Shown here: piece after piece, positions 49,520 to 64,000 of the stretch
Numbering within the stretch: position 1 is the stretch's first letter
Layout of the letters: every line of letters begins with the position of its first letter
The notes under the pieces: generated by a model
Databases searched by the model: none
What the model saw: the letters and a program-made list of their open reading frames with translations, nothing else
What the model was told of the DNA's origin: nothing
NCBI GenBank assembly: GCA_905182175.1
Contig: CAJJAT010000014.1
Location: 186,001-250,000, forward strand
DNA: 64,000 bases
Source: Flavobacteriales bacterium UBA1494
GTDB lineage: Bacteria > Bacteroidota > Bacteroidia > Flavobacteriales_E > Vicingaceae
Direction of reading: 5' to 3'
Program-made: the position numbers and the translations under genes

Positions 49520-49546
49520 AGTTTTTTTATACTCACCCAACTATCT

Positions 49547-49554
49547 TATTTTTG
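49547..49554 (+). promoter_or_regulatory. -7 box (TATTTTTG)
   Basis: Exact TAnnTTTG 38 bases before the ATG of the first PKD protein. Confidence 0.5.
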
Positions 49555-49592
49555 TAGGCGTATTATAGCCAAACAAACTTAAAATAGTTGTT

Positions 49593-50972
49593 ATGAAAAA
49601 AATCTACTTATTATTAGTCACCGTTTTCTTTATTGGTGCAACTCAGGTAAACGCTCAATGCAGTGCCGACTTTCAGTATTTTACATCAGGGCTGACGGTT
49701 CAATTTCAAGATTCATCCTTTTACTCAACGAACACATTTTTTACGCAAGACTGGAGTTTCGGTGATGGGAATATCGGTAATGGAACAGCTCCTACGCACA
49801 TATACGCTGCGGCAGGAACATATACAATCACCTTAACCATTTCAGACAGTCTGTTTACATGCCTTGACTCTATTAGCAAAGTAGTTATCGTTACAACAGC
49901 CGCTCCGACAGCTTGTAACACAAGCTTTACATACAGTGTAAATCCAAATAATACAGCAAGCTTTATTAGTTCTGTCACAGGTGGAACAGCTCCATTTTCA
50001 TATGCTTGGGATTTTGGCGATGGTAACACCAACACAGCAGGATTTCAAAATCCAAACCATACGTATACAAACACAGGCACTTACGTTGCTACCTTAACTG
50101 TTACAGGTGCTAACGGCGGAACTTGTTTTTACTCAGATACAATTACTGTAAATACGTGTACTGCAAACTTTAGCTATCAAGTAGGAAGTAACGGTACAGT
50201 CTCATTTACCAACTTGTCTAGCGTCATTCAAGGAGTAAGCTTCTCTTGGAATTTTGGTGACAACAGCCCAACTAATTTTATGGCCAGCCCAACGCATACC
50301 TATACTGTTGCTAACTCATACATTGCTACCTTAACTATGTCTGATTCATTGAACAATTGTTCAGCAACATTTTCTGACACAGTAGTGGTAACAATCGGTT
50401 CCCCAAACCAATGTAATGCTGCTTTTACAAAAGCAAAAGATTCTACTGTTGCTTACGGTGTTATACTGTATAATAGTTCTAGCAACTTCGGGTCTCATTT
50501 TTATACTTGGGATTTTGGTGACGGAATTACAGGTTCAGGAAGAACCCCAATTCATACTTACCAAAGATTTGGTTCTTATGCAGTTTGTTTAACGATTACT
50601 GATTCAATCTTAAACTGCACTTCTACTTTCTGCGATACTGTTGGAATGGATTCTTTAGGTAACCTAAAAACTGGATTCGGAATTCGAGTTCAAAATTTAA
50701 TTGCAGTTGGAATAGATGAAACAAACGATTTAAACGCGATTGTATTATACCCTAACCCTGCAAATAATCAAATTTCATTGGACTTAAGTTCTGTTGAAAA
50801 CAACATTAGTATTAGAATAATGGATGTTTCCGGTAGAGTTGTAATGGATCAATTAAATCAAAACCCTGGAAGTGTACAAAACTTTGAGATCACTTCATTC
50901 AAAAGTGGATTGTACTTCATGGTGTTAGACAACGGAAATACGCAAGAAATTAAGAAGTTTATTAAACGATAA
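49593..50972 (+). CDS. T9SS-exported protein with four PKD repeats
   Basis: 459 residues. Signal peptide ending VNAQ, then four PKD domains each with a W-x-FGDG...P-H-x-Y-x-x-x-G-x-Y core and starting C-x-A-x-F (about 22, 108, 190 and 273), then a spacer with FCDTVGMDSLGN and a type A sorting domain (ALVLYPNP-like AIVLYPNPANN...IKKFIKR). It is probably secreted and anchored on the cell surface; PKD repeats usually serve in adhesion or as spacers. Paralogous to the next gene. A terminator follows. Confidence 0.88.
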   Translation: MKKIYLLLVTVFFIGATQVNAQCSADFQYFTSGLTVQFQDSSFYSTNTFFTQDWSFGDGNIGNGTAPTHIYAAAGTYTITLTISDSLFTCLDSISKVVIVTTAAPTACNTSFTYSVNPNNTASFISSVTGGTAPFSYAWDFGDGNTNTAGFQNPNHTYTNTGTYVATLTVTGANGGTCFYSDTITVNTCTANFSYQVGSNGTVSFTNLSSVIQGVSFSWNFGDNSPTNFMASPTHTYTVANSYIATLTMSDSLNNCSATFSDTVVVTIGSPNQCNAAFTKAKDSTVAYGVILYNSSSNFGSHFYTWDFGDGITGSGRTPIHTYQRFGSYAVCLTITDSILNCTSTFCDTVGMDSLGNLKTGFGIRVQNLIAVGIDETNDLNAIVLYPNPANNQISLDLSSVENNISIRIMDVSGRVVMDQLNQNPGSVQNFEITSFKSGLYFMVLDNGNTQEIKKFIKR

Positions 50973-51001: not shown

Positions 51002-51036
51002 AAAAAGGCAGTGTCTAATTAGATACTGCCTTTTTA
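51002..51036 (+). terminator. Rho-independent terminator
   Basis: AAAAAGGCAGTxTCT / AGAxACTGCCTTTTT stem with a short AATT loop, between the two PKD-protein genes; the second therefore needs its own promoter. Confidence 0.85.
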
Positions 51037-51079
51037 CATTTATACCCAACTTTAGTATTAAAAATATCGTCTATAAATC

Positions 51080-52897
51080 ATGAAGAAATTATTAATCTTC
51101 CTTTGCTTTAGTCTATTTTTTGCAACTGCAATCAATGCGCAAAACTGCCAAGCAGGATTTAACTATTTCACCAATGGGTTAACAGCAACTTTCACCGACT
51201 CATCCTATAGCAATATTACAGGTGGTTTTCAATCATCTTGGAATTTTGGGGATGGAACCGTCTCTAATTCTATGAATCCTTCGCATGGTTACTCTCAATC
51301 TGGTGCATACTCAGTTTGTCTAACTATTTCAGACTCCCTTTGCAGTAATTCCAGTTGCTCCACAATAGTAATCCAATCACATCCAACTACTTGCCAAGCA
51401 GATTTCTATTTTATCCCCACTGGATTAAATGTTCAATTTCACGATACTTCAGTAACTGGAGTTTATTCGCGTTACAATTGGAATTTTGACGACGGCACAG
51501 GTAGTTCAATAAAAAACCCCGATAACAATTACAGCCAATCCGGTTCTTATGTTGTGCACTTGTCTATTTACGATTCTATTTCAAACTGCTCAAGTCTAAC
51601 ATCCGACACTGTTACTGTAACGAAACCAATAAACTGTGTAGCATATTTCACCTACAACTTAAGTGGAACAACTGTAGACTTTACAGATAGAGCAAGCAAC
51701 TACAATTCTATACAGTACAACTTAGGAGATGGAACAATCGCGTACGTGCCGAATCCAACACACCAATATACCGGACCGGGAAGCTACATTGTTTCTCAGA
51801 CAGTTGCAACGTTAACAGGCTGTTCCAACACTTTTACAGATACAATCGTCATACTCCCGCCTTGTCAAGCCAGATTTACTTACATCACTAACAACTTTCA
51901 AGTAAACTTTGTGAGTCAAGCAACAAACAATACTAGTGTCATTTATGATTTTGGAGACGGCAATACAAATTCAATGGCCAATCCTACCTACACTTATACT
52001 GATACAGGGAAATACCTCGTTTGCCAAACTGTAACCAATCAAAACAATTGTATTTCTACCTTTTGTGATACTGTACAGATAAAGTTACCGATTCTATGCG
52101 TTGCTAATTTTTCTTTCACTTCACCAAACGATACGACACAGTTCACCAACTTATCTGAACACTTTACCAGAGTAAATTACAACTTTGGCGACGGCAACTT
52201 TTCTAACAGCAACAATCCAATACACGACTATGCTGCAAGTGGGACATACCACGTAGTTCTTACCATTTACAACGATAGTACAAGCTGCACAGACTCTATT
52301 ATAAAACCTGTAACTGTTACCATTTCCAAGTCTTGTGTTGCACGTTTTGAATTAGCTATTGACACGAATCAACGGGATATTCTATTTTTAGTAAATTCTT
52401 CATCTTCCGACAATACACACAGTTACTTTTGGGATTTTGGAGATGGAAATACAGCGAAGACAAGACTTCCAGTTCATCGCTATAGTCTTAACCAAGCATA
52501 TACTATTTGTTTAACTGTTTCTGACAGCGTTCAAAACTGTACTTCCAATTATTGCGATTCGGTTGGTTTAGATTCGAATGGAAATATTATAAAATCTGCA
52601 GGATTTAAGCTTAGAGTTTTAGATGGAACATTCATCAGAATTGAAAAGAACAACTCCTTAGAAAATTCAATTTCAGTTTACCCTAATCCATTCACAAATC
52701 AGATAACGGTAGAGGTAGATTCTGAAGGAAACCCAGTTAATTATCTAGTTGTAACTCTTCAAGGCACTGTAGTACTGCAGAGCTCATTTAATGGCAAACA
52801 CAACATTATCAGTATGGACAATTTTCCACCCGGAATTTACTTTATTAAACTATTCCAATCCGGAAAAACAGCGGTGAAAAGAATAGTGAAAATTTAA
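51080..52897 (+). CDS. T9SS-exported protein with six PKD repeats
   Basis: 605 residues. Signal peptide ending INAQ; six PKD-like domains, each opening with C-x-A-x-F and carrying a FGDG-type turn (the second has FDDG, the third LGDG); spacer YCDSVGLDSNGN nearly identical to that of the upstream paralogue; type A sorting domain (SVYPNPFTN...GIYFIKLF...KRIVKI). Probably an adhesin-like surface protein. It ends 14 bases before the ECF sigma reading frame, suggesting co-transcription with the sigma/anti-sigma pair. Confidence 0.88.
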   Translation: MKKLLIFLCFSLFFATAINAQNCQAGFNYFTNGLTATFTDSSYSNITGGFQSSWNFGDGTVSNSMNPSHGYSQSGAYSVCLTISDSLCSNSSCSTIVIQSHPTTCQADFYFIPTGLNVQFHDTSVTGVYSRYNWNFDDGTGSSIKNPDNNYSQSGSYVVHLSIYDSISNCSSLTSDTVTVTKPINCVAYFTYNLSGTTVDFTDRASNYNSIQYNLGDGTIAYVPNPTHQYTGPGSYIVSQTVATLTGCSNTFTDTIVILPPCQARFTYITNNFQVNFVSQATNNTSVIYDFGDGNTNSMANPTYTYTDTGKYLVCQTVTNQNNCISTFCDTVQIKLPILCVANFSFTSPNDTTQFTNLSEHFTRVNYNFGDGNFSNSNNPIHDYAASGTYHVVLTIYNDSTSCTDSIIKPVTVTISKSCVARFELAIDTNQRDILFLVNSSSSDNTHSYFWDFGDGNTAKTRLPVHRYSLNQAYTICLTVSDSVQNCTSNYCDSVGLDSNGNIIKSAGFKLRVLDGTFIRIEKNNSLENSISVYPNPFTNQITVEVDSEGNPVNYLVVTLQGTVVLQSSFNGKHNIISMDNFPPGIYFIKLFQSGKTAVKRIVKI

Positions 52898-52911
52898 GCT
52901 CAAAGCTTAAC

Positions 52912-53460
52912 ATGAATATTGATAAATCACTCATAAAAAGCTGCTTAAACAAGGAAAGAGCCGGTCAAAACCGGATGTATAAAGAACTCTTTTCTTACTT
53001 AATGAATATTCGCATGCGTTATAAAAATGATTATAACACAGCAGGTGCTAGCTTGAATGCGATTTATTTAAAGATATTAGAGAACTTACACTAGTTTAGA
53101 AAACAAGACTCTTTTATTGCTTGGATAAAACGAATTGCAGTGAACCACTTAATAGATGAGTACAGAAAGGACAAGAGGATAAAAAAGCATACAACTTATC
53201 TTGAAGATAATAGAGTCCTAGAGTCAAAGTCGTTTCACAGCAAAGAAGCCGAAATGGAATCTGAGTATTTGTTAGAGATGATACGAGAATTACCTCCGAC
53301 AACTCAAAAAGTATTTAACCTTTACTCAATAGATGGTTATAAGCATAAAGAAATAGGAGAGTTACTTGAGATGAGTGAAAACACTTCCAAGTGGCATTTA
53401 CGCGACGCAAGAATAAAACTACAGGCCAAAGTATTGGTTTTTAATGAAAAAGAATCATGA
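52912..53460 (+). pseudogene. ECF sigma-70 factor interrupted by one in-frame TAG
   Basis: A single frame of 182 codons reads as a complete ECF sigma factor except for TAG at 53092-53094. Before it: region 2 beginning (NRMYKELFSYLMNIRMRYKND...YLKILENLH); after it: FRKQDSFIAWIKRIAVNHLIDEYRK (region 2.4) and sigma region 4 (LPPTTQKVFNLYSIDGYKHKEIGELLEMSENTSKWHLRDARIKLQ). Nothing else is damaged and the end overlaps the next start (ATGA). An internal GTG/ATG after the stop could give only a truncated region-4 protein. Either recent inactivation, readthrough, or a sequencing error. Confidence 0.8.
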
Positions 53461-54857
53461 GTGATCTGAATAACATAGACGAACTCTTCCGCAACGGAAT
53501 TGAACGTGAATACCCCGTAGACGACGGATTATGGTCTGCTGTTGAAGCTCAGCTACCTTATACTTCAGCACCAAAACCATGGTACTTCAACCTAAACTCT
53601 ATTGTTTTAGGAGTAGTATTGATCACCTGTTCGTTTATCCAAAAAGACAACACTAGAGCAAGTCAAACTAATATCAACCCTGAAATAATCAAGAATGCCT
53701 CAACAGCTATTCTAACCTCAAAGTCAGATCAATTAACTGAAATAACCAGGACTTCCGCTAAAGAGCTATTACTTCGAACAACACCTTATAAGACTAATCA
53801 GCCAAATCAAAGTGAAAAACCCAAAAGCCCAACTACAAAAACTAAAATAACCACCCCACCGGGTCAAACAACAAATGCATCAGCAACTAAAGTCAATTAT
53901 GATTCAACACCTCGAATTAAAGATGCACTAAGAACACTAAAGAAACAGTCTGAAAAGATTCATACGAAAGAGAATCTTGCTGCATTTACTTCACAACCAA
54001 TTTCCCTGTACAAACCCGAGGAGTTTCCTCTTCTATCAACCATTCCTATTGTAGGCTCCTTCATCACTTTCGACCAGAAAGCTATGCGCTATCCGATGTT
54101 AGTAGATTGCTTGAAATACAATCTAAAACCGTCTTCTTATCACTCTTTTGAAGTTGAGTCGTTCTACTCCATTTCAATTCACAAATCTCTTAATAATGGA
54201 GATAATAGTCTCTTAAATAACAAAAAACGTGGGGAAAAAGCAATCGACTTTAAAAGCACAGGTCTGAACTATGTTAAACAAAAAAAATTCCTTGTTTATG
54301 GCTTGGGTATTCAACAGTCTACCTATACCGAAAGGTACAGTTACTCTGTTAACTTGGAGAAAACTAGAATTAATTTAACATATGACACCACTTATCAACT
54401 TGTGTCGGGAAATTTTAATAGTAATGGCACACCAGTTTTTTTAATTCAACAAGAGGTAACGGAAAACGTAAATGAAGAAACATACTCAGATAAAGTAGAA
54501 GTTATTGGTAGAAATACGATAAAAAGAGTTGGAGTCCCACTATTTATAGGTGCCCATAAAAGCTACCAAAATTGGATGATGCAAGTAAGGTTTTCTGTTA
54601 TTCCTCAATTCATTTACAACTTATCAGGCAACTATTTAGCGAATGATTTAAACAATTTGACTGAACTTAGCGAAACAGAGATTAAGACATGGAGTTTAGG
54701 CAACAGAAATGATTTGAGCCTAGGTTATACCGTTAACGAGAAATTCGTGGTAGGAGCAAAATACAGTGTCTTAAATGATCTAAATTCATTCACCAAAACG
54801 TACGATAGTAAGCTAAGCGGTCAGCTTATTGGCGTCTGGATTTTATGGAAACTCTAG
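53457..54857 (+). CDS. Putative dual-membrane-spanning anti-sigma factor with C-terminal outer-membrane barrel
   Basis: 466 residues. The cytoplasmic N-terminus (DELFRNGIEREYPVDDGLWSAVEAQL) has the look of Bacteroidota anti-sigma N-termini; one membrane helix lies at about 46-61 (NSIVLGVVLITCSFI). Residues about 65-170 are a Thr/Asn/Lys/Pro-rich disordered linker, and about 270-466 form alternating strands ending WILWKL, an outer-membrane barrel pattern. This order matches the Dma-type anti-sigma factors described in Bacteroides. Its start overlaps the sigma gene end, so they are translationally coupled. Assignment is by layout and position. Confidence 0.6.
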   Translation: MSDLNNIDELFRNGIEREYPVDDGLWSAVEAQLPYTSAPKPWYFNLNSIVLGVVLITCSFIQKDNTRASQTNINPEIIKNASTAILTSKSDQLTEITRTSAKELLLRTTPYKTNQPNQSEKPKSPTTKTKITTPPGQTTNASATKVNYDSTPRIKDALRTLKKQSEKIHTKENLAAFTSQPISLYKPEEFPLLSTIPIVGSFITFDQKAMRYPMLVDCLKYNLKPSSYHSFEVESFYSISIHKSLNNGDNSLLNNKKRGEKAIDFKSTGLNYVKQKKFLVYGLGIQQSTYTERYSYSVNLEKTRINLTYDTTYQLVSGNFNSNGTPVFLIQQEVTENVNEETYSDKVEVIGRNTIKRVGVPLFIGAHKSYQNWMMQVRFSVIPQFIYNLSGNYLANDLNNLTELSETEIKTWSLGNRNDLSLGYTVNEKFVVGAKYSVLNDLNSFTKTYDSKLSGQLIGVWILWKL

Positions 54858-55319: not shown

Positions 55320-56039
55320 TTAACTAGAAAGCTTAAAGTTTACAGGAACCGTGTACTGGATTCGAACAGGCTTTCCTCTTTGTTTTCCAGGTTTCATTTT
55401 TGGTAACGCTTTAATAACTCTGACCGCTTCTTTCTCGAGAGATTTCCCTCCCGGCACACCTCGAACTACTTTAACTTCATTTACTTCACCCTTAGTGTCA
55501 ACTAAAAACTGCACATATACTCTACCTGAGGTTCCTGCATCTCTTGCCATTGCAGGGTACGAGGTATTCTTCCCAATGAACTTTCTCATTTCATTTCCAG
55601 TACATGCATCAATCTCAGCTTTTGATCCCGCACCTTCACATCCAGGAAAAATCGGCATGTCCTCAACGACAGTAAAAATTTGAGCTTCTTCAAACACCTC
55701 TTCGGGCTGCTCGAAAATCTCTGTTTCCATGTCAGCTTCAGAATCTTGAATCTCCACCTCATCCTCAATAACCTTGTCATCCTCAACAATTTCCAAAATT
55801 TCTTGTGGCGGTGGTGGTGGTGGTGGTGGTGGTGGTGGTGGCTGATTTTGCTGTGTAATGGGTATTATTTCCTCTTCAATATCATCCATTTGCAACTGTC
55901 CTAGAGAACTAGCGGCCTCCTCATATGTCTTCCATTCGAAAGCAATAAGTACAAAAGACAATGCAAGCACTAAACCAATCGCAAACAAAATACCTTTTTT
56001 GTCTTCTAAATCAGCTTTAGGATTCTTTTTTAATTCCAT
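55320..56039 (-). CDS. tonB: Energy transducer TonB
   Basis: 239 residues: cytoplasmic start, one membrane helix (GILFAIGLVLALSFVLIAF), a proline/acidic periplasmic linker containing 12 consecutive prolines, and a C-terminal TonB domain (YPAMARDAGTSGRVYVQFLVDTKGEVNEVKVVRG...VPVNF). It passes proton-motive energy to outer-membrane receptors. The domain contains FPGCEG...IDACTGNEMRKFI, a cysteine-bearing segment common in Bacteroidota TonB paralogues. No exbB or exbD is adjacent. Confidence 0.92.
   Translation of the reverse strand: MELKKNPKADLEDKKGILFAIGLVLALSFVLIAFEWKTYEEAASSLGQLQMDDIEEEIIPITQQNQPPPPPPPPPPPPQEILEIVEDDKVIEDEVEIQDSEADMETEIFEQPEEVFEEAQIFTVVEDMPIFPGCEGAGSKAEIDACTGNEMRKFIGKNTSYPAMARDAGTSGRVYVQFLVDTKGEVNEVKVVRGVPGGKSLEKEAVRVIKALPKMKPGKQRGKPVRIQYTVPVNFKLSS
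55806..55841 (-). repeat. Trinucleotide microsatellite encoding 12 prolines
   Basis: On the plus strand TGG CGG followed by ten TGG units; on the coding strand CCA/CCG proline codons in tonB. Nearly pure, so length can vary by slippage without breaking the frame. Confidence 0.85.
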
Positions 56040-56110
56040 AATATTCCTTTTTCAATTAGCTAAGGTAAGAAATTTTAGAAATCCTATCTTAATTTAATGT
56101 GCAGCGTGGG

Positions 56111-56452
56111 TTAACTTTTTCTAAACCGTTTCGACAATAAAAATACAACAATTAATCCAAAACAATTCGCAATAAAATCAAGCCAGTCTCCTGTTCTATT
56201 TGGGACCAAATAATGCTGTATTAGTTCAGTCGCTGATGCTAGAGCAAACGCAAATATGATCAGTATCGTATGCATATTACCTTTTAATTGCGCCACAAAC
56301 AAAAACCACATTAAAAGACCATACATAGCAACATGAGCAATCTTATCTACACCTACTACAGGCTTTATTTTAAATTCTTGTAAAGGAGCAAAACTTAACC
56401 AACAAATCGCTAGTACCCAAAAAAATAACGGTACAAAGCGTAACTTCTTCAT
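56111..56452 (-). CDS. VanZ-like family membrane protein
   Basis: 113 residues with four helices and the VanZ-like motif DKIAHVAMYGLLMWFLF, then ATELIQHYLVPNRTGDWLDFIANCFG. The family includes VanZ of glycopeptide resistance, but most members are of unknown role. It starts directly at the end of gcvH (no gap). Confidence 0.85.
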   Translation of the reverse strand: MKKLRFVPLFFWVLAICWLSFAPLQEFKIKPVVGVDKIAHVAMYGLLMWFLFVAQLKGNMHTILIIFAFALASATELIQHYLVPNRTGDWLDFIANCFGLIVVFLLSKRFRKS

Positions 56453-56830
56453 TTATGCAACCTCCGCTTCATAAGCTTCAGCAGATAATAAATCGTCTAG
56501 CTGCGACATATCTGCCAATTTCACTTTGATCATCCAACCATCTTCATAAGGATTATCATTTACTGACTCCGGACTTGCCTCAATCTTATCATTTACTTCA
56601 ATTACCTCACCTTTAACAGGCATAAACAAATCAGAAACGGTCTTTACCGCTTCAACCGTTCCAAAAACTTCTCCTTTTTCTAGGTTGTCTCCTTCTGTTT
56701 CAATTTCAACGTAAACAATGTCACCCAATTCACTTTGAGCAAAATCAGTAATCCCGATGGTAGCTATATCGCCGTCGATCTTTATCCATTCGTGATCTGA
56801 TGTATATTTTAAATCTGCTGGAATATTCAT
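56453..56830 (-). CDS. gcvH: Glycine cleavage system H protein
   Basis: 125 residues. The lipoyl-carrying Lys63 is in FGTVEAVKTVSDLFMPV, with the N-terminal TSDHEWIKI and the C-terminal NPYEDGWMIKVKL. It shuttles the methylamine group between P and T proteins of glycine cleavage. The other gcv genes are not here; linkage to sprA and vanZ is common in Flavobacteriia. Confidence 0.95.
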   Translation of the reverse strand: MNIPADLKYTSDHEWIKIDGDIATIGITDFAQSELGDIVYVEIETEGDNLEKGEVFGTVEAVKTVSDLFMPVKGEVIEVNDKIEASPESVNDNPYEDGWMIKVKLADMSQLDDLLSAEAYEAEVA

Positions 56831-56851
56831 GTCTTTTTATTTTATTTAATA

Positions 56852-56859
56852 CAAATTTA
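56852..56859 (-). promoter_or_regulatory. -7 box (TAAATTTG) for gcvH
   Basis: Exact TAnnTTTG on the minus strand, 22-29 bases above the gcvH ATG, in the 40-base gap to sprA; gcvH-vanZ can be transcribed apart from sprA. Confidence 0.45.
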
Positions 56860-56870
56860 TCGAAAGATAA

Positions 56871-59800
56871 TTATTGCGAGAGCGTAAATCGTAAACTAAT
56901 TCCAGCATTTGTATTTGCTGTTGGAAAACTAGAGGAAATTAACGGTGTATTTGCCACTCTATCGTAGAAGAATCTCAGGTTCAACTTGCTACTAAATCTA
57001 TAATCAGCAGTAAATTTAATAGAAAAAATTCGTTGACCAGAAGTTAATTCATTTCTATTTTCCACTATCCTCCTTATTACCGTCTGGTTATCTCTGATAG
57101 AAACATCTGCTCTTAAATCAAGGTCGCTGGCCTTCTCTACCTTTCCTACTTTAAATGGCAACTTTACGTTGGTTAGTCGGTAGCCCAAGCCAATAATATA
57201 TTCTTTACCGACAATTTCAGTTATTTGGTTGTTGGCAAAGCTAAGCGATACATTTCTGTCTCTTCTCATTTCCAACCTAGTTAGTAGACTATTATTCCAA
57301 GTCATATCTACATTAATTAATGGACTAAACTGTTCGCTAATACTCGCCACACTTAGCTGCTTGTCAGTTATAAAGTTACCATTAACATCTTTTTGTGTTG
57401 GTGCGCCATTTACGTCTTCTTTATAAAGTTGGTTTCTTGTAAAGCTCCCAACACTAAAATTAGATCTGTAAGCATGATTCAATGTTACTGTTTTAAACAG
57501 CTTTTTTAAAGCAGGAATTTTAGATAAACCGTCATATGTAATGTTCCAATTGGGCATTGGCAACATTTTTGTAAAGTCTCTAATTACCGTGCTACTGGCA
57601 CTTTTTCCTGCATAAGCTGACAGGAATGAGTGCAATAGCACATCCTGAGAGGTAGCTCCATATCCCTGTCCGTAAAGTTCGCCATCACCCAATGTGTCTC
57701 TAAACAACTCCTGCATGTTCAGCTTTTGTGAAATTACTGCCCTATTTTCTCTTAACGCAGTGAACGTTTCATTGCTAAAATTATCTTCATCATTTTGGAC
57801 AAAGGCGGTTCTAAAACTTAAAAAAGATTGACTGTAATTGCCATTTACAACAACAGGAGCATCAAAATTATATAAAGCAGAATCCGGATCGTAAAAGAAA
57901 TTTCGCGTAGTATTTTCTGATTGTCTTTTGTTTGCTTCTAATTGAATTCTAAGCCCTTTTATCGGCTGTAACGTAGCTCTAATACTAAATTGGCTGCTAA
58001 ATGTTTTGGAAAAATCTCCACTAACAAAAACTCCGTCAACCAACCAATCTGCTCTTCCATCTCCGTCCGAATCATTCCTAGCCCTTTCTAAAAATGATTC
58101 TCCAGGTCCTTGAATACCCGCAATAAAATCTAAGCCCGGAGCCGTCCAAGAAGGTCCTAAACCAAGGACACTCATACTCTGATTGTAATTTGGCAAAATA
58201 GTTCCTTCCGTTTCGCTATACGTTACATTAACATTCTTCAAACTCATTAGCGTCCAAAGTGTGTTATCAAATAGGTATCGTTTCAGAAAGAATTTTTTCT
58301 TTCGTAGGGTATCGGGCTCCTCCTCTTCCTCAATGGCAGTCTTCTTGTTAGAAAATTTATTAGCAGCCTTTTCCTCATCTGCTTCTATCTTTTCAACTAA
58401 TTCTATTTCCTCTCTCTTATTTTTCTTTTTCTCCTTTTTGTCAGCGTCATCTTCCAAATCCTCTGGGTCTAAAATAACATACTTGTTGTCTATCTTGGGG
58501 TCTTTCAAATCTTTCACATACTGAAACTTATCTAACAAGGCTTGAAAATTAACAGTTGCATTGATTCGTTTGGTATTTGAGTTTTGAATGGTTGCTCCCA
58601 AGCTTGGTGTTGTGTCTAGTGGATTTCCTACTAAATCCCAAGAATAAGTTGCACCGTACCTAGCCGAAGAGGTTATAAAATCTAAACCAGGCAATTTGTT
58701 AATTGGGATATTATAATTAATATCAAAATTGTGATTGTAATTCGTATTGTCTCCAAATCCTTTTATGTTATTCCACACCTCCCGTTTATAGGCATCGTAT
58801 GTTTCTTCGTCATCTCTATTCACAGCACCATCAGGCTCCCCAATTAATGCTTGTGCTGCTGCTGAGAAATTAAACGTTAAAGACTTCGTTAACTTATGAC
58901 GCAACGTATAATTCCGTTGCCAGTTAAATGCTTTTTGGTAAAACACCTCTGATGGGAAATCTAATACCCCCGGCGCAGCTACTGTAATAGTTCTAGCTTG
59001 TCGTTCTTGATAGTTTCTGTCAAATGAATTTTGAATGCTTATTTGACTCGGAACAAGGTTTATGTTAATGTCCTTTATTATCCTGAATGCCTTCTTCTCT
59101 AAAAATTTAACCTTTTTAAAGGGTTCTATGCTTTTCGCCTTACCTGAAAAGGTATAATTTATCTGACCACGATAAGTTTGTTGGTTGTTTTTAGCCGTGT
59201 TTATATCGCTTCGAATGATTTCAGAATAGGCGTAAGTAAAAGAGAAATTTTCTATATCATAAAAATTTGATTTCTTTTTATTCGGCCCAGGCATCTTACG
59301 GACATTGGTAAAGTTTAAACTCCTCCTCGTTGTCTTGTCGTCTGTTATATTACGAATAGAATCTTTAAAGTTCTGATCTAACTCTGGAGATCGATAGAAG
59401 TCCTTCAACTTAACATCCGGGTCTAATGGATTAAATTCAGGTCGTATGATGCTTTCTGAAATAGAATAATACATGGGAATACTAACATTCGCCTGTTTTG
59501 GCAAGAACTTAGCCAATTCAACACTGGCCGATAAATCATATTGTTGCTTCGTTTCTCGCTGCCTTTCGTTTAGTTTTTGCTCCAAACTACCCCACCCAGG
59601 TGTGCTGTAACTTCCAGATAAATTCACCGAACCCAAATCCGCAATCTGTGCGGTAGCTCTAGCTGTTGCTGCCCACCCTCCGTCGTTATTAAAGTCAGAC
59701 AATCGCAACTCATTTACCCATATTTCAGCGCATTTTGACAATCCATCATCTATAAACTGAATTGGCCCTCCCTTTCTATTTCGAACACCAATCATAATTA

Positions 59801-62800
59801 CTCTCACTTCCGCAAGGTTTGGATTTCCCTTTACTCGAATAATATTTTTCCCATCAACGGCTTCATATGCATTTCCAAGAAGAACAGTACTCCCTGGGCC
59901 ATTCGACAGTCGATTTCTAGCCTGTTTTGCATTAATTAACTTATCGAATTGAAGATCGATATCGTTGTTGTCAGGCCAAACTTCTTCGGGTTGATTTCGT
60001 CCAGGCTGTGTAACATCCAGTGGGACTTCATATTCGTAATAGTTGTTTGCAAAATCAGTTCCTAACCTTAATACAACAGAGACATCTCCATTATTTAAGA
60101 ATTCATCTTCACTTCCAGCCTCAGCATGTGAGAACATTTTCAACCTTTTATACTGTCGAATATCTAAATCCAAATACCTAAAAGCAAATTTCGAATATCC
60201 ATCTTGTAAATCACACACATCTAAAACTAGAGACTGCTCGTTCAATTGACGTTGATTTGTTGTTCCAAAATCAATTTCTCGGTCAATATCCGGTGGTATT
60301 GTATAGTTAATTGGAACTCTATTTGAATTTTCCTCTACATTTACAGCCCCTATGTTAAAGGTTGTTGCACCAGGCTCCGCGCTGTGTGTATCCCCAGGAG
60401 GCAAATCTGTTCCTTGGTAACTTCTCCACTCTCCTCGCACTAGTCCTAGTCTTGCAAAACGAACTACTACTTCCTCATCAAACCCCCTTAAGAACATCCT
60501 CATAAATCGAATAGACTTAAAATCTCTTATCTCACCAATTACTTTCTCCGGCTGACGAATGGGAATTTTGAATTGATACCAGTTGACGGTTTTCGTTTCA
60601 CCGTTTACATTTTTTGTTGCCCTTACTACATCAGTAATAAAATTATCTCCAACGTTATTTGGACTAAGCAAATCAGGAGTAAGTTGAACCTTATATTGAA
60701 AATAACTTTCTGTCCTGTCCAAGTTAAAGTTTCTGTTTACATCCTCAACATCTGGTAAGGTTGTTGCAGCGGTTGGATAACTTTCAGGAGATTGATCTCC
60801 CGTAGGTGAGTTCCCTTGGTGACCGTTAAACTTCTTGTATCTGTCCAAAATAGAAAGCTCATTGCCGTCGTAATCACTCCCTCTATAATAATGGTAATTA
60901 TCATTTGAAGGATCATTGGTGAATGAACCTAAAATAGTTGGATTCGTTACAATATTTGCTAGAGAATCTAAATAATCTCCAAATTCTATTCGCTCATCAA
61001 TATCGTTAAGCCCATCTAAACCAATATCCTGAAACCTTCTAGCATTGGGATTATTATCAAATGCATTCACTACTGATTGAATGGTAGGAATTCTTCCCCA
61101 AACAGTAGAAGTGGTGTTTTCAGCACTCCCTGTATTTGAGAATCCGTTTTCAAAACTTTTTCTAGAATCTTGCAAAACATCTTCTGAAACAGACCCAATG
61201 TTGAAATACAATTGCCCCCCGTTATGGTTTAAGTTTCCATCTTGTTCATTAAAAGGATCCATGATCCAAAATTGAATGAACTCAACATTTGAAGCCTCAA
61301 AATCACTTGAGGTAATTTCTCGCATAATTCCTCCCCATCTTGTCTCGGGAGAGTTTAAAAGTCCTTGGTTATTAATCCCATCTGAAAATGCACCTCCGCC
61401 TAAGTCGTAATTATAAGGCCCTCTTTCTGTCGGATAAAAAGCCAAATCTAAAGTTGGCAAGTTATTAATCAACCCTGGCTCCGGATCTTTATTTGGGAAC
61501 ACCTCCGTTTCTAATATTTCTCTTGAAAGATTGTTAGACTGGCTTTCAGAATTTTGTATGTGTCCCGGTGTCCTAGAATCGTTCCTAAAAAACAATGGAT
61601 CAATTGTATACCAAGCTAATTTAGCACGGTTATAACCGTAAGCGGTATTGTTAATTAAATTTCCTTCTTTAAATAAATCTTCTTGTCCTTGAGGAGTACT
61701 GGCTAAAGACCATGCGTTAGCAGCTCTGACATCTAAAACAGTTTGACTTCCCTCAAAATCGTCGATATAAGCAATACCGTCTTTGGTTATCGCTTTCGAG
61801 TTCCCTGGAAATAAACGTGCAACTTCTCCTGCAATTGTAAAAGTTGATTTTTCTTTTGTGCTGAAGAAAGGCAACATGTCTGCCAGTTTAGTGAGGATAG
61901 GTGCTTCTGATGTATACGCACCGTCTAGCCCAACTATCGTATTCGAAATAGGCTCATCTCCAATATTAATTTTCCTTGTTAAAGGCCTCTCTGTTAAGTT
62001 TAATATTGTTCCTCCAATGTTAATGTCTTCAGAAATTCTATAATCAAATCGAGAACCAATTAGCGTCTTTGTTTGCACATTAAACAAAGAGTTACTACCC
62101 AATGAAACTTTAATCGGTTGCCCAGAAGCAAGAATTCCTTCATTCAAAATTCTCACTCTACCTAGATTATAGTCAACCGTATAGTCAACATTTTCTGTTA
62201 ACTGAGCGCCTCCAGCTGTAACAGTAACTGAACCTTGCGGAATATTAAATGAGTTCAATGAGATTTCTGAGCCCGAACTTGACTGATACCTTCCCCTAAA
62301 CGTATATCGATTGTTATCTACGTCTTGTTGTGCAAGAATTTTAGTGGTGGTATACAAAGAATCGTACGCAAACTTATTACCAAGATTGGGGTCGTCAAAC
62401 TGGGCCCTTAAATAATCACCAAATGGCTCCAAAACAGGGAAGTAAACTTTACCGCTTTGAGGGTTTATAGTCACATTTGGAACAAAATCAAACAGGCCAT
62501 CTGACTGAGCTTGATTCGTTATTGTCATTCTATCCAACCCTAGAGTATTGATAAGTGGCTTTCCAGTAGGCTTACCTTCAGGGAAGTAAGGTATCTCGAC
62601 TCCAGTTTCCTCGTTTAAATACCAAATTTCAAATGTAAAGTTCTCAGGACTTACGTTAAATGCATCTAGAGAATAAACGTTTTTCATCATTAAATCCCAA
62701 GAGGGTAAGCTTGGATTTATAATTGTTCCTTTTAACAGCTTTAAATACAAAGCGTCTTGTCCATCAATCCCGTCAGTACTTAAATCCCCTACCTGATATA

Positions 62801-64000
62801 CTTTCCCATTGTAAGTATAACGATACGAAACTGCTAATACATCTTGCGGATTTAGAGTTCTGTTTAATGAAATATATCCTAGCTCAGGATTCAACGTGTA
62901 TTCGTTTGCCGAAAGTAGAACTGCATTTTCCAAGCGTTCATAATCCTCTCCACTTCTTAACTGCTCTCCTTGCAATACCTCATCTGCTTCATTAAAGCCT
63001 CGAATTCTAGAAGCACCAGAATAATCAGTTGCAAGATTAGCATACAAATTATTAGCTTCATTCGCAGCTCTTCCAACAATAGGAGTTGTCAGTTGAACTC
63101 GTTGCGGATTACTAATTCTTCTATCGTTAGCTAAATCAGTAAATGCTAAAATATTTCTGGTATTTTGAAATGACCCTTGCGTATTGGTAATATATACCTC
63201 AACAGCAGTAATGTTAATTCTAGAAGTAATTCGGGGTGGGGACGAGAGATTTTTTTCATAGTCCTCTCTAAACAGATGGGATAAAAAATAATGTCGATTG
63301 TCTTCATATTCTGAGGCTGATTTCTCAAATTCTTGAACTTGAGCACCTCCAGAGATGTTAATCTCTTTTTTTTCTCCTTTTTCTTGAGAAAATAAAGTAG
63401 TAACTCTTAACCTGCCGAATTGCAATTCAGTTTTTAATCCAAATAACGTTTGACTTCCTGTTATCAGCGAGCTTTGCAACGGCAAGGAGACATTTCCTGC
63501 TTCAATTTTCTTAATAATTTCATCTTCATATCCAGTATAATCTAGCTTCGTCTGGTTCTCAAAATCGAAGGTAGCTTCAGTGTTGTAGCTTGTCTGTATT
63601 TTAAGCTTTTCCCCAATATTTCCAATTACATTTAATTGAATTTTTTGCTGAAAATCAAATGTACTGGTTCTTCTTTGTCGCTCAGGTAAAATAGGATTTT
63701 CTCGTCTGGATACGTTAATTCCAAAAGACAATTCAGCGGAACCTTGGGGTCGAATATCAATTACGTTGCCACCGAATATTCGATCGAATAACTCCCCTTT
63801 TATATTAATTTGAGGGCGAAACCCTTCTGTTTCGTTCAAACTCTGAGCATCTTGTTTTTGCCTCCAAAAATCTTTTTGACTCTCAGCCATATCGTATTTC
63901 AGATATTCCTCCAAACTCATCGTATTTGGATTCCTATAATCTCGATCTCCTATTTTCTGGTAATATTTGTATTCGCCTGTTTCCGGATCGTACTGAAACT
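56871..64000 (-). CDS. sprA: T9SS translocon protein SprA (Sov homologue), 5' end outside the window
   Basis: About 2375 residues visible; the frame continues through the window edge (YDPETGEYKYYQKIGDRD before SLEEYLKYD), so the ATG at 63920 is internal. SprA/Sov is the giant (about 2400 residues) outer-membrane barrel through which T9SS cargo leaves the cell. Recognisable blocks include FRPQINIKGELFDRIFGGNVIDIRPQGSAELSFG near the start, the GSRFDYRISEDINIGGTILNLTERP segment, and a strand ending FTLSQ at the C-terminus. A charged K/E-rich insert lies near 58280-58480. Proline- and aromatic-rich strands run throughout. gcvH follows. Confidence 0.93.
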   Translation of the reverse strand, partial: FQYDPETGEYKYYQKIGDRDYRNPNTMSLEEYLKYDMAESQKDFWRQKQDAQSLNETEGFRPQINIKGELFDRIFGGNVIDIRPQGSAELSFGINVSRRENPILPERQRRTSTFDFQQKIQLNVIGNIGEKLKIQTSYNTEATFDFENQTKLDYTGYEDEIIKKIEAGNVSLPLQSSLITGSQTLFGLKTELQFGRLRVTTLFSQEKGEKKEINISGGAQVQEFEKSASEYEDNRHYFLSHLFREDYEKNLSSPPRITSRINITAVEVYITNTQGSFQNTRNILAFTDLANDRRISNPQRVQLTTPIVGRAANEANNLYANLATDYSGASRIRGFNEADEVLQGEQLRSGEDYERLENAVLLSANEYTLNPELGYISLNRTLNPQDVLAVSYRYTYNGKVYQVGDLSTDGIDGQDALYLKLLKGTIINPSLPSWDLMMKNVYSLDAFNVSPENFTFEIWYLNEETGVEIPYFPEGKPTGKPLINTLGLDRMTITNQAQSDGLFDFVPNVTINPQSGKVYFPVLEPFGDYLRAQFDDPNLGNKFAYDSLYTTTKILAQQDVDNNRYTFRGRYQSSSGSEISLNSFNIPQGSVTVTAGGAQLTENVDYTVDYNLGRVRILNEGILASGQPIKVSLGSNSLFNVQTKTLIGSRFDYRISEDINIGGTILNLTERPLTRKINIGDEPISNTIVGLDGAYTSEAPILTKLADMLPFFSTKEKSTFTIAGEVARLFPGNSKAITKDGIAYIDDFEGSQTVLDVRAANAWSLASTPQGQEDLFKEGNLINNTAYGYNRAKLAWYTIDPLFFRNDSRTPGHIQNSESQSNNLSREILETEVFPNKDPEPGLINNLPTLDLAFYPTERGPYNYDLGGGAFSDGINNQGLLNSPETRWGGIMREITSSDFEASNVEFIQFWIMDPFNEQDGNLNHNGGQLYFNIGSVSEDVLQDSRKSFENGFSNTGSAENTTSTVWGRIPTIQSVVNAFDNNPNARRFQDIGLDGLNDIDERIEFGDYLDSLANIVTNPTILGSFTNDPSNDNYHYYRGSDYDGNELSILDRYKKFNGHQGNSPTGDQSPESYPTAATTLPDVEDVNRNFNLDRTESYFQYKVQLTPDLLSPNNVGDNFITDVVRATKNVNGETKTVNWYQFKIPIRQPEKVIGEIRDFKSIRFMRMFLRGFDEEVVVRFARLGLVRGEWRSYQGTDLPPGDTHSAEPGATTFNIGAVNVEENSNRVPINYTIPPDIDREIDFGTTNQRQLNEQSLVLDVCDLQDGYSKFAFRYLDLDIRQYKRLKMFSHAEAGSEDEFLNNGDVSVVLRLGTDFANNYYEYEVPLDVTQPGRNQPEEVWPDNNDIDLQFDKLINAKQARNRLSNGPGSTVLLGNAYEAVDGKNIIRVKGNPNLAEVRVIMIGVRNRKGGPIQFIDDGLSKCAEIWVNELRLSDFNNDGGWAATARATAQIADLGSVNLSGSYSTPGWGSLEQKLNERQRETKQQYDLSASVELAKFLPKQANVSIPMYYSISESIIRPEFNPLDPDVKLKDFYRSPELDQNFKDSIRNITDDKTTRRSLNFTNVRKMPGPNKKKSNFYDIENFSFTYAYSEIIRSDINTAKNNQQTYRGQINYTFSGKAKSIEPFKKVKFLEKKAFRIIKDININLVPSQISIQNSFDRNYQERQARTITVAAPGVLDFPSEVFYQKAFNWQRNYTLRHKLTKSLTFNFSAAAQALIGEPDGAVNRDDEETYDAYKREVWNNIKGFGDNTNYNHNFDINYNIPINKLPGLDFITSSARYGATYSWDLVGNPLDTTPSLGATIQNSNTKRINATVNFQALLDKFQYVKDLKDPKIDNKYVILDPEDLEDDADKKEKKKNKREEIELVEKIEADEEKAANKFSNKKTAIEEEEEPDTLRKKKFFLKRYLFDNTLWTLMSLKNVNVTYSETEGTILPNYNQSMSVLGLGPSWTAPGLDFIAGIQGPGESFLERARNDSDGDGRADWLVDGVFVSGDFSKTFSSQFSIRATLQPIKGLRIQLEANKRQSENTTRNFFYDPDSALYNFDAPVVVNGNYSQSFLSFRTAFVQNDEDNFSNETFTALRENRAVISQKLNMQELFRDTLGDGELYGQGYGATSQDVLLHSFLSAYAGKSASSTVIRDFTKMLPMPNWNITYDGLSKIPALKKLFKTVTLNHAYRSNFSVGSFTRNQLYKEDVNGAPTQKDVNGNFITDKQLSVASISEQFSPLINVDMTWNNSLLTRLEMRRDRNVSLSFANNQITEIVGKEYIIGLGYRLTNVKLPFKVGKVEKASDLDLRADVSIRDNQTVIRRIVENRNELTSGQRIFSIKFTADYRFSSKLNLRFFYDRVANTPLISSSFPTANTNAGISLRFTLSQ

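Follow-up and report, generated by a model that had tools for sequence, protein, structure and literature searches.

A recurrent T9SS cargo-sigma-barrel gene module of Bacteroidota with a predicted Dma-like regulator and an interrupted ECF sigma frame

A T9SS cargo gene, an ECF sigma frame and a gene for a protein with a predicted outer-membrane barrel follow each other on one strand of the window (the whole stretch of 64,000 nt that was analysed), and this cargo-sigma-barrel module recurs across the class, beyond the locus studied here. The locus is probably a copy of a recurrent Bacteroidota module, namely an autoregulated, Dma/Das-like surface-protein switch that is wired to T9SS cargo. This reading is built on the gene order, the predicted protein architecture, a promoter with fixed spacing, the recurrence of the module and the clustering on the sigma tree, all of which were computed here.

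The source genome (G000) is a draft of 3.3 Mb in 45 contigs with 96% completeness. In the window, dxs lies upstream of two T9SS cargo genes, which like the rest of the module are on the plus strand. The first one (49593-50972) encodes a protein of 459 aa with four PKD stretches and a sorting tail, and the second one (51080-52897) a protein of 605 aa with six PKD stretches and a sorting tail at residues 533-603. The six-PKD gene is separated by 14 bases from the ATG of the ECF sigma frame at 52912 (182 codons, interrupted; 52912-53460), the stop of which overlaps as ATGA (53457-53460) with the start of the gene for a Dma-like protein of 466 aa (53457-54857). Both distances were already given in the first-pass annotation and proved correct when the coordinates were re-read, while the four-PKD gene, the hairpin and the shared ECF-type promoters described below were absent from it. 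Between the two cargo genes there is a terminator-like hairpin followed by a T run (51002-51036, plus strand; -20.9 kcal/mol, z -7.4). Therefore, the four-PKD gene is probably a separate transcription unit, and the six-PKD gene forms an operon with the sigma and the barrel genes. A scan of the region for sigma-70 promoters and terminators did no better than chance, and this strong hairpin escaped its terminator rule. On the 3’ side of the module, a TonB-like gene, a VanZ-like gene, gcvH and sprA (encoding a T9SS component) are located on the minus strand (55320-63920), a neighbourhood which is retained within the genus.

That the gene at 51080-52897 encodes a T9SS cargo with six PKD stretches, as had been read from the letters alone, was borne out by matches to Pfam PKD_4 (E=4e-65) and by its sorting tail, which scored 39.2 bits with PF18962 (cut-off 27) and 43 bits with TIGR04183 (cut-off 23). 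The T9SS type A C-terminal sorting domain is above the curated cut-off in both cargo proteins. By eye their N-termini resemble signal peptides, and export by the T9SS is predicted. Next to the sorting tail of the six-PKD protein there is a PKD variant, in which a DSxGN motif is followed by GFxLxV (52370-52678, plus strand). This domain is common to most cargo proteins of the module, irrespective of the part that precedes it; in a minority of them its place at the sorting tail is taken by a carboxypeptidase-regulatory-like or an SdrD_B-like domain. In this genome, the whole PKD-variant segment is matched only by the two promoter-bearing cargo genes. In a genome of the same genus (G005; L313, 1-2720), the four-PKD cargo gene is present as a tandem duplicate, each copy having its own ACCAAC-N17-CGT promoter.

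For the 466-residue protein, searches of Pfam and NCBIfam revealed no convincing family, and no relevant match was obtained when the barrel alignment was searched against the sequences of solved structures. Its AlphaFold2 model, built on 12 sequences, shows two helices at residues 3-18 and 23-31 within a putative sigma-binding part (residues 1-31; 53457-53549, plus strand), a hydrophobic helix at residues 41-59 that is predicted to span the inner membrane (53577-53633, plus strand), a linker of about 165 residues with pLDDT below 50 (residues 61-224; 53637-54128, plus strand), and strands from residue 228 to 465, mostly of high confidence, in a predicted outer-membrane beta-barrel (residues 225-466; 54129-54854, plus strand). 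The homologues have a single hydrophobic stretch at the position of the membrane helix, and the N-terminal motif IDELFRxG...YPxDExLW is conserved among them, while the linker is not. In the comparison with solved structures by Foldseek, OmpW, NspA and OmpA barrels were found with a target-normalised TM score of about 0.6, and for three of the 12 aligned homologues there is a match to a family of outer-membrane barrels. The architecture proposed in the first-pass annotation, with an N-terminal part, one membrane helix, a linker of about 100-200 residues and a barrel, thus agrees with the AlphaFold2 and Foldseek results. In the locus L059 (5742-5954), a fragment resembling the last barrel strands is located 3’ of an intact gene and looks like the remnant of a duplication.

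In the gut species Bacteroides thetaiotaomicron, Dma consists of an N-terminal sigma-binding part, one membrane helix, a long disordered tether and a C-terminal beta-barrel (PMC13088901). All four parts are predicted in the same order for the 466-residue protein, and it is adjoined by an ECF sigma gene as well, the frame of which carries a stop here. At the level of predicted architecture, the protein can therefore be called Dma-like. By analogy to Dma it may bind and inhibit the sigma factor. When the read-through sigma was folded together with the N-terminus (in-frame read-through homologue L063, N-terminus without alignment rows), the pLDDT of the N-terminal part was below 50. The known partners of Dma proteins are sigma factors of the ECF21 group.

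The gene order is not peculiar to this genome. A T9SS cargo gene, the sigma gene and the barrel gene were found in this order in all seven other genomes of the family with a complete locus, among them Acidiluteibacter ferrifornacis (Flavobacteriales) with an intact module, and also in four named MAGs that are more distant; the conservation check suggested in the first-pass annotation thus came out positive wherever a relative has a complete locus, and the order recurs across the class. About 400 genomes of the class, named contigs and the control loci yielded 71 sigma/barrel pairs for which the upstream gene could be read. A T9SS cargo gene is located directly upstream on the same strand in 35 of these 71 pairs and in none of the 30 other ECF sigma genes (Fisher p=1.5e-7), where it should be considered that the pairs were collected by similarity to this family, so that the counts describe a clade and not independent trials. 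Independently, a Pfam scan of 42 same-strand upstream ORFs detected the sorting tail in 35 of them and PKD in 29. On the sigma tree, 33 cargo-linked sigma factors belong to one branch of 43 rows (SH-aLRT 99), which comprises 40 labelled rows (33 with and seven without cargo) and three further rows that were unread. Cargo linkage changes eight times on this tree versus 29 times when shuffled.

In the window itself, the sigma regions are present at 52912-53460, as had been annotated, but the frame is not open, because an in-frame TAG at codon 61, inside region 2 (53092-53094, plus strand), had been overlooked. When the TAG is read as a residue, both region 2 (PF04542, 28.1 bits) and region 4 (PF08281, 50.6 bits) are recognized. 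Among the NCBIfam models listed, the cut-off is exceeded only for the superfamily model TIGR02937 (69 bits, cut-off 42.9), while the sigma factor scores too low for each narrower one. Eleven sigma orthologues are intact and open throughout. Since the frame is otherwise conserved, the change is probably recent. Either the sigma gene of this genome is broken by a recent nonsense mutation, or it was mis-sequenced; in the former case, the switch is probably inactive in this organism. Another ECF sigma gene of the same genome (L156; G000:C3, about 132300) is a heavily broken remnant.

It is rather likely that the sigma gene is truly broken and that we see the first decay step of a module that is being lost in the genus, a reading that does not conflict with the main explanation as regards the relatives. 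TAG is an ordinary stop in the window, where it ends seven of 36 long ORFs including that of the 466-residue protein, and a search of the genome for tRNA genes gave 30, none of which reads TAG as a suppressor would, in a list that lacks Ile and Asp and is thus incomplete. Further, two residues that are invariant in the other sigma factors are altered here (L22M and C34R). Finally, the module is eroded in related genomes. In G002 (L312, 2169-2472), a genome of the same genus, dxs directly adjoins the TonB gene, and nothing of the cargo-sigma-barrel module lies between them. As the module is located 3’ of dxs in genomes across the family, this empty site is explained more simply by a loss in G002. 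In G003 (L285, 1-1240), of the same genus too, several stops interrupt the four-PKD cargo gene, the promoter of which is intact. However, the window shows no damage to the Dma-like gene or to the two cargo genes, both promoters are full matches, and the sigma gene of G005, which belongs to the same genus, is intact. Thus, one genus offers a natural loss series with an intact module, a stop in the sigma gene, a broken cargo gene and an empty site.

Alternatively, the TAG could be an error of sequencing or assembly, in which case the sigma gene would be intact and the locus a working copy of the module. This is possible, if not the expected outcome, for a draft genome in 45 contigs. In its favour, the frame is open and conserved on both sides of the TAG, which differs by a single base from the AAG codon of the nearest relative. 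In comparison to this relative, dN amounts to 0.15 in the part before the stop and to 0.20 in the part after it, with saturated dS, and the sigma gene does not show a significant excess of change (8 vs 4, p=0.39). However, the long neighbouring genes purF, dxs and sprA (2349 codons) are all open, and the same module is eroded in the related genomes mentioned above.

The usual marks of ECF promoters are AAC at -35 and CGT at -10. Before both cargo genes of the window we found the sequence ACCCAAC-N17-CGT, at 49535-49561 for the four-PKD gene and at 51044-51070 for the six-PKD gene and the operon (both plus strand), and we consider these to be putative ECF-type promoters. Upstream of 17 of 18 cargo genes from the family and its near relatives, CCAAC and CGT are exactly 17 bases apart. 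In the wider set, AAC-N17-CGT is present in 23 of 34 cargo-linked loci, compared to 1.5 expected and a maximum of five in 200 dinucleotide shuffles, while spacings of 15, 16, 18 and 19 between AAC and CGT occur in zero to two of the 34 loci; the other 11 loci are without AAC-N17-CGT in the region searched. Genome-wide, the bare pattern is at background, with 73 matches versus 99 for the reversed pattern, and the additional matches, when read in context, are mostly located within or before unrelated genes. Therefore a larger regulon cannot be claimed, and the pattern marks these loci only. The CGT box ends nine bases upstream of the six-PKD start codon (51068-51080), so that the transcript would be almost leaderless, and the situation is similar in several relatives. 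Two related loci without an upstream cargo gene (L300 (G049) 5314; G048:C7:7323) have the same promoter pattern just before the sigma gene.

These data also bear on the proposal that the genes are adjacent without regulatory relation, i.e. that the sigma factor acts on a different regulon, with the cargo and barrel genes as passengers. Co-location by itself is indeed no proof of control, and the promoter consensus is, as stated, at background level in the genome. However, ECF-type promoters with fixed spacing precede the cargo genes of species that share 60-75% sigma identity, and also those of more remote species, loci with two cargo genes have two such promoters, and in G002 the module is missing as a whole unit, all of which makes this proposal unlikely. 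Least credible of all is the idea that a shortened product with nothing but region 4 works as an inhibitor or maintains translational coupling to the barrel gene: the longest ORF in the sigma frame, 106 aa from the GTG at 53140, does match sigma region 4, but the split form is found in no relative, and ECF sigma factors require region 2 for the -10 box.

Returning to the autoregulated switch, it can be compared to several known systems. In Dma1/Das1 and Dma2/Das2, as here, the sigma factor and its regulator are adjacent in one operon, and the regulator has the layout that is predicted here, a likeness by architecture. Dma2 mainly regulates its own operon; the published work deals with vesiculation and glycan loci, does not mention the T9SS and does not name the Dma signal (PMC13088901). 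In contrast, the operon described here starts with a T9SS cargo gene, usually one with PKD, and a second cargo gene has the same promoter. In Porphyromonas gingivalis, the sorting-tail protein PorA affects signalling by SigP and was proposed to relay a surface signal (PMC7712824). Like here, an ECF sigma factor is linked to the T9SS and to a sorting-tail protein, but SigP is controlled by the two-component system PorXY and targets the T9SS machinery, whereas our locus has a predicted Dma-like regulator in the same operon and predicted cargo targets. In Flavobacterium psychrophilum, a CGT -10 box was taken as the ECF mark of the SM6 promoters, which precede genes for T9SS components and one ECF/anti-sigma pair; the responsible sigma factor was not identified in that work (PMC9723704). 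The CGT box is shared with our promoters, while the SM6 targets are T9SS machinery rather than cargo. More generally, co-transcription of a sigma factor with its membrane regulator is typical for ECF/anti-sigma pairs; what differs here is that the regulator reaches a predicted outer-membrane barrel and that the operon opens with an exported surface protein. A literature search for T9SS, ECF sigma and PKD together yielded an incidental match only.

Based on these likenesses, we suggest that the Dma-like protein would hold the sigma factor at the inner membrane by its short N-terminal helices, while its barrel would reside in the outer membrane. A change in the state of the outer membrane or the surface would release the sigma factor, and transcription by it would then start at both copies of the CCAAC-N17-CGT promoter, one serving its own operon and the other the four-PKD cargo gene; the output of the switch would be T9SS surface protein. 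Presumably it is this sigma factor that uses the CCAAC-N17-CGT promoters, and the signal may be the outer-membrane state or the cargo itself. That the unit adjusts a surface protein was already proposed in the first-pass annotation, and the presumed control of surface protein is strengthened by the promoters before both T9SS cargo genes; the sensing part of that proposal stays conjectural. Tentatively, the cargo could be input as well as output, if its exported domain next to the sorting tail, a candidate contact site, met the barrel and the signal passed via the tether to the sigma factor. PorA provides a precedent, by analogy, for a cargo protein feeding back on a sigma factor.

If such feedback exists, the cell would tune the production of its surface protein to the amount successfully displayed, and the cargo-linked ECF clade would constitute a thermostat for surface display that is general in Bacteroidota and self-contained. 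Further, a Dma-like layout that is linked to an exported surface protein both by operon and by promoter provides a concrete signal candidate together with a small regulon, and the CCAAC-N17-CGT promoter may be used as a handle for finding such circuits.
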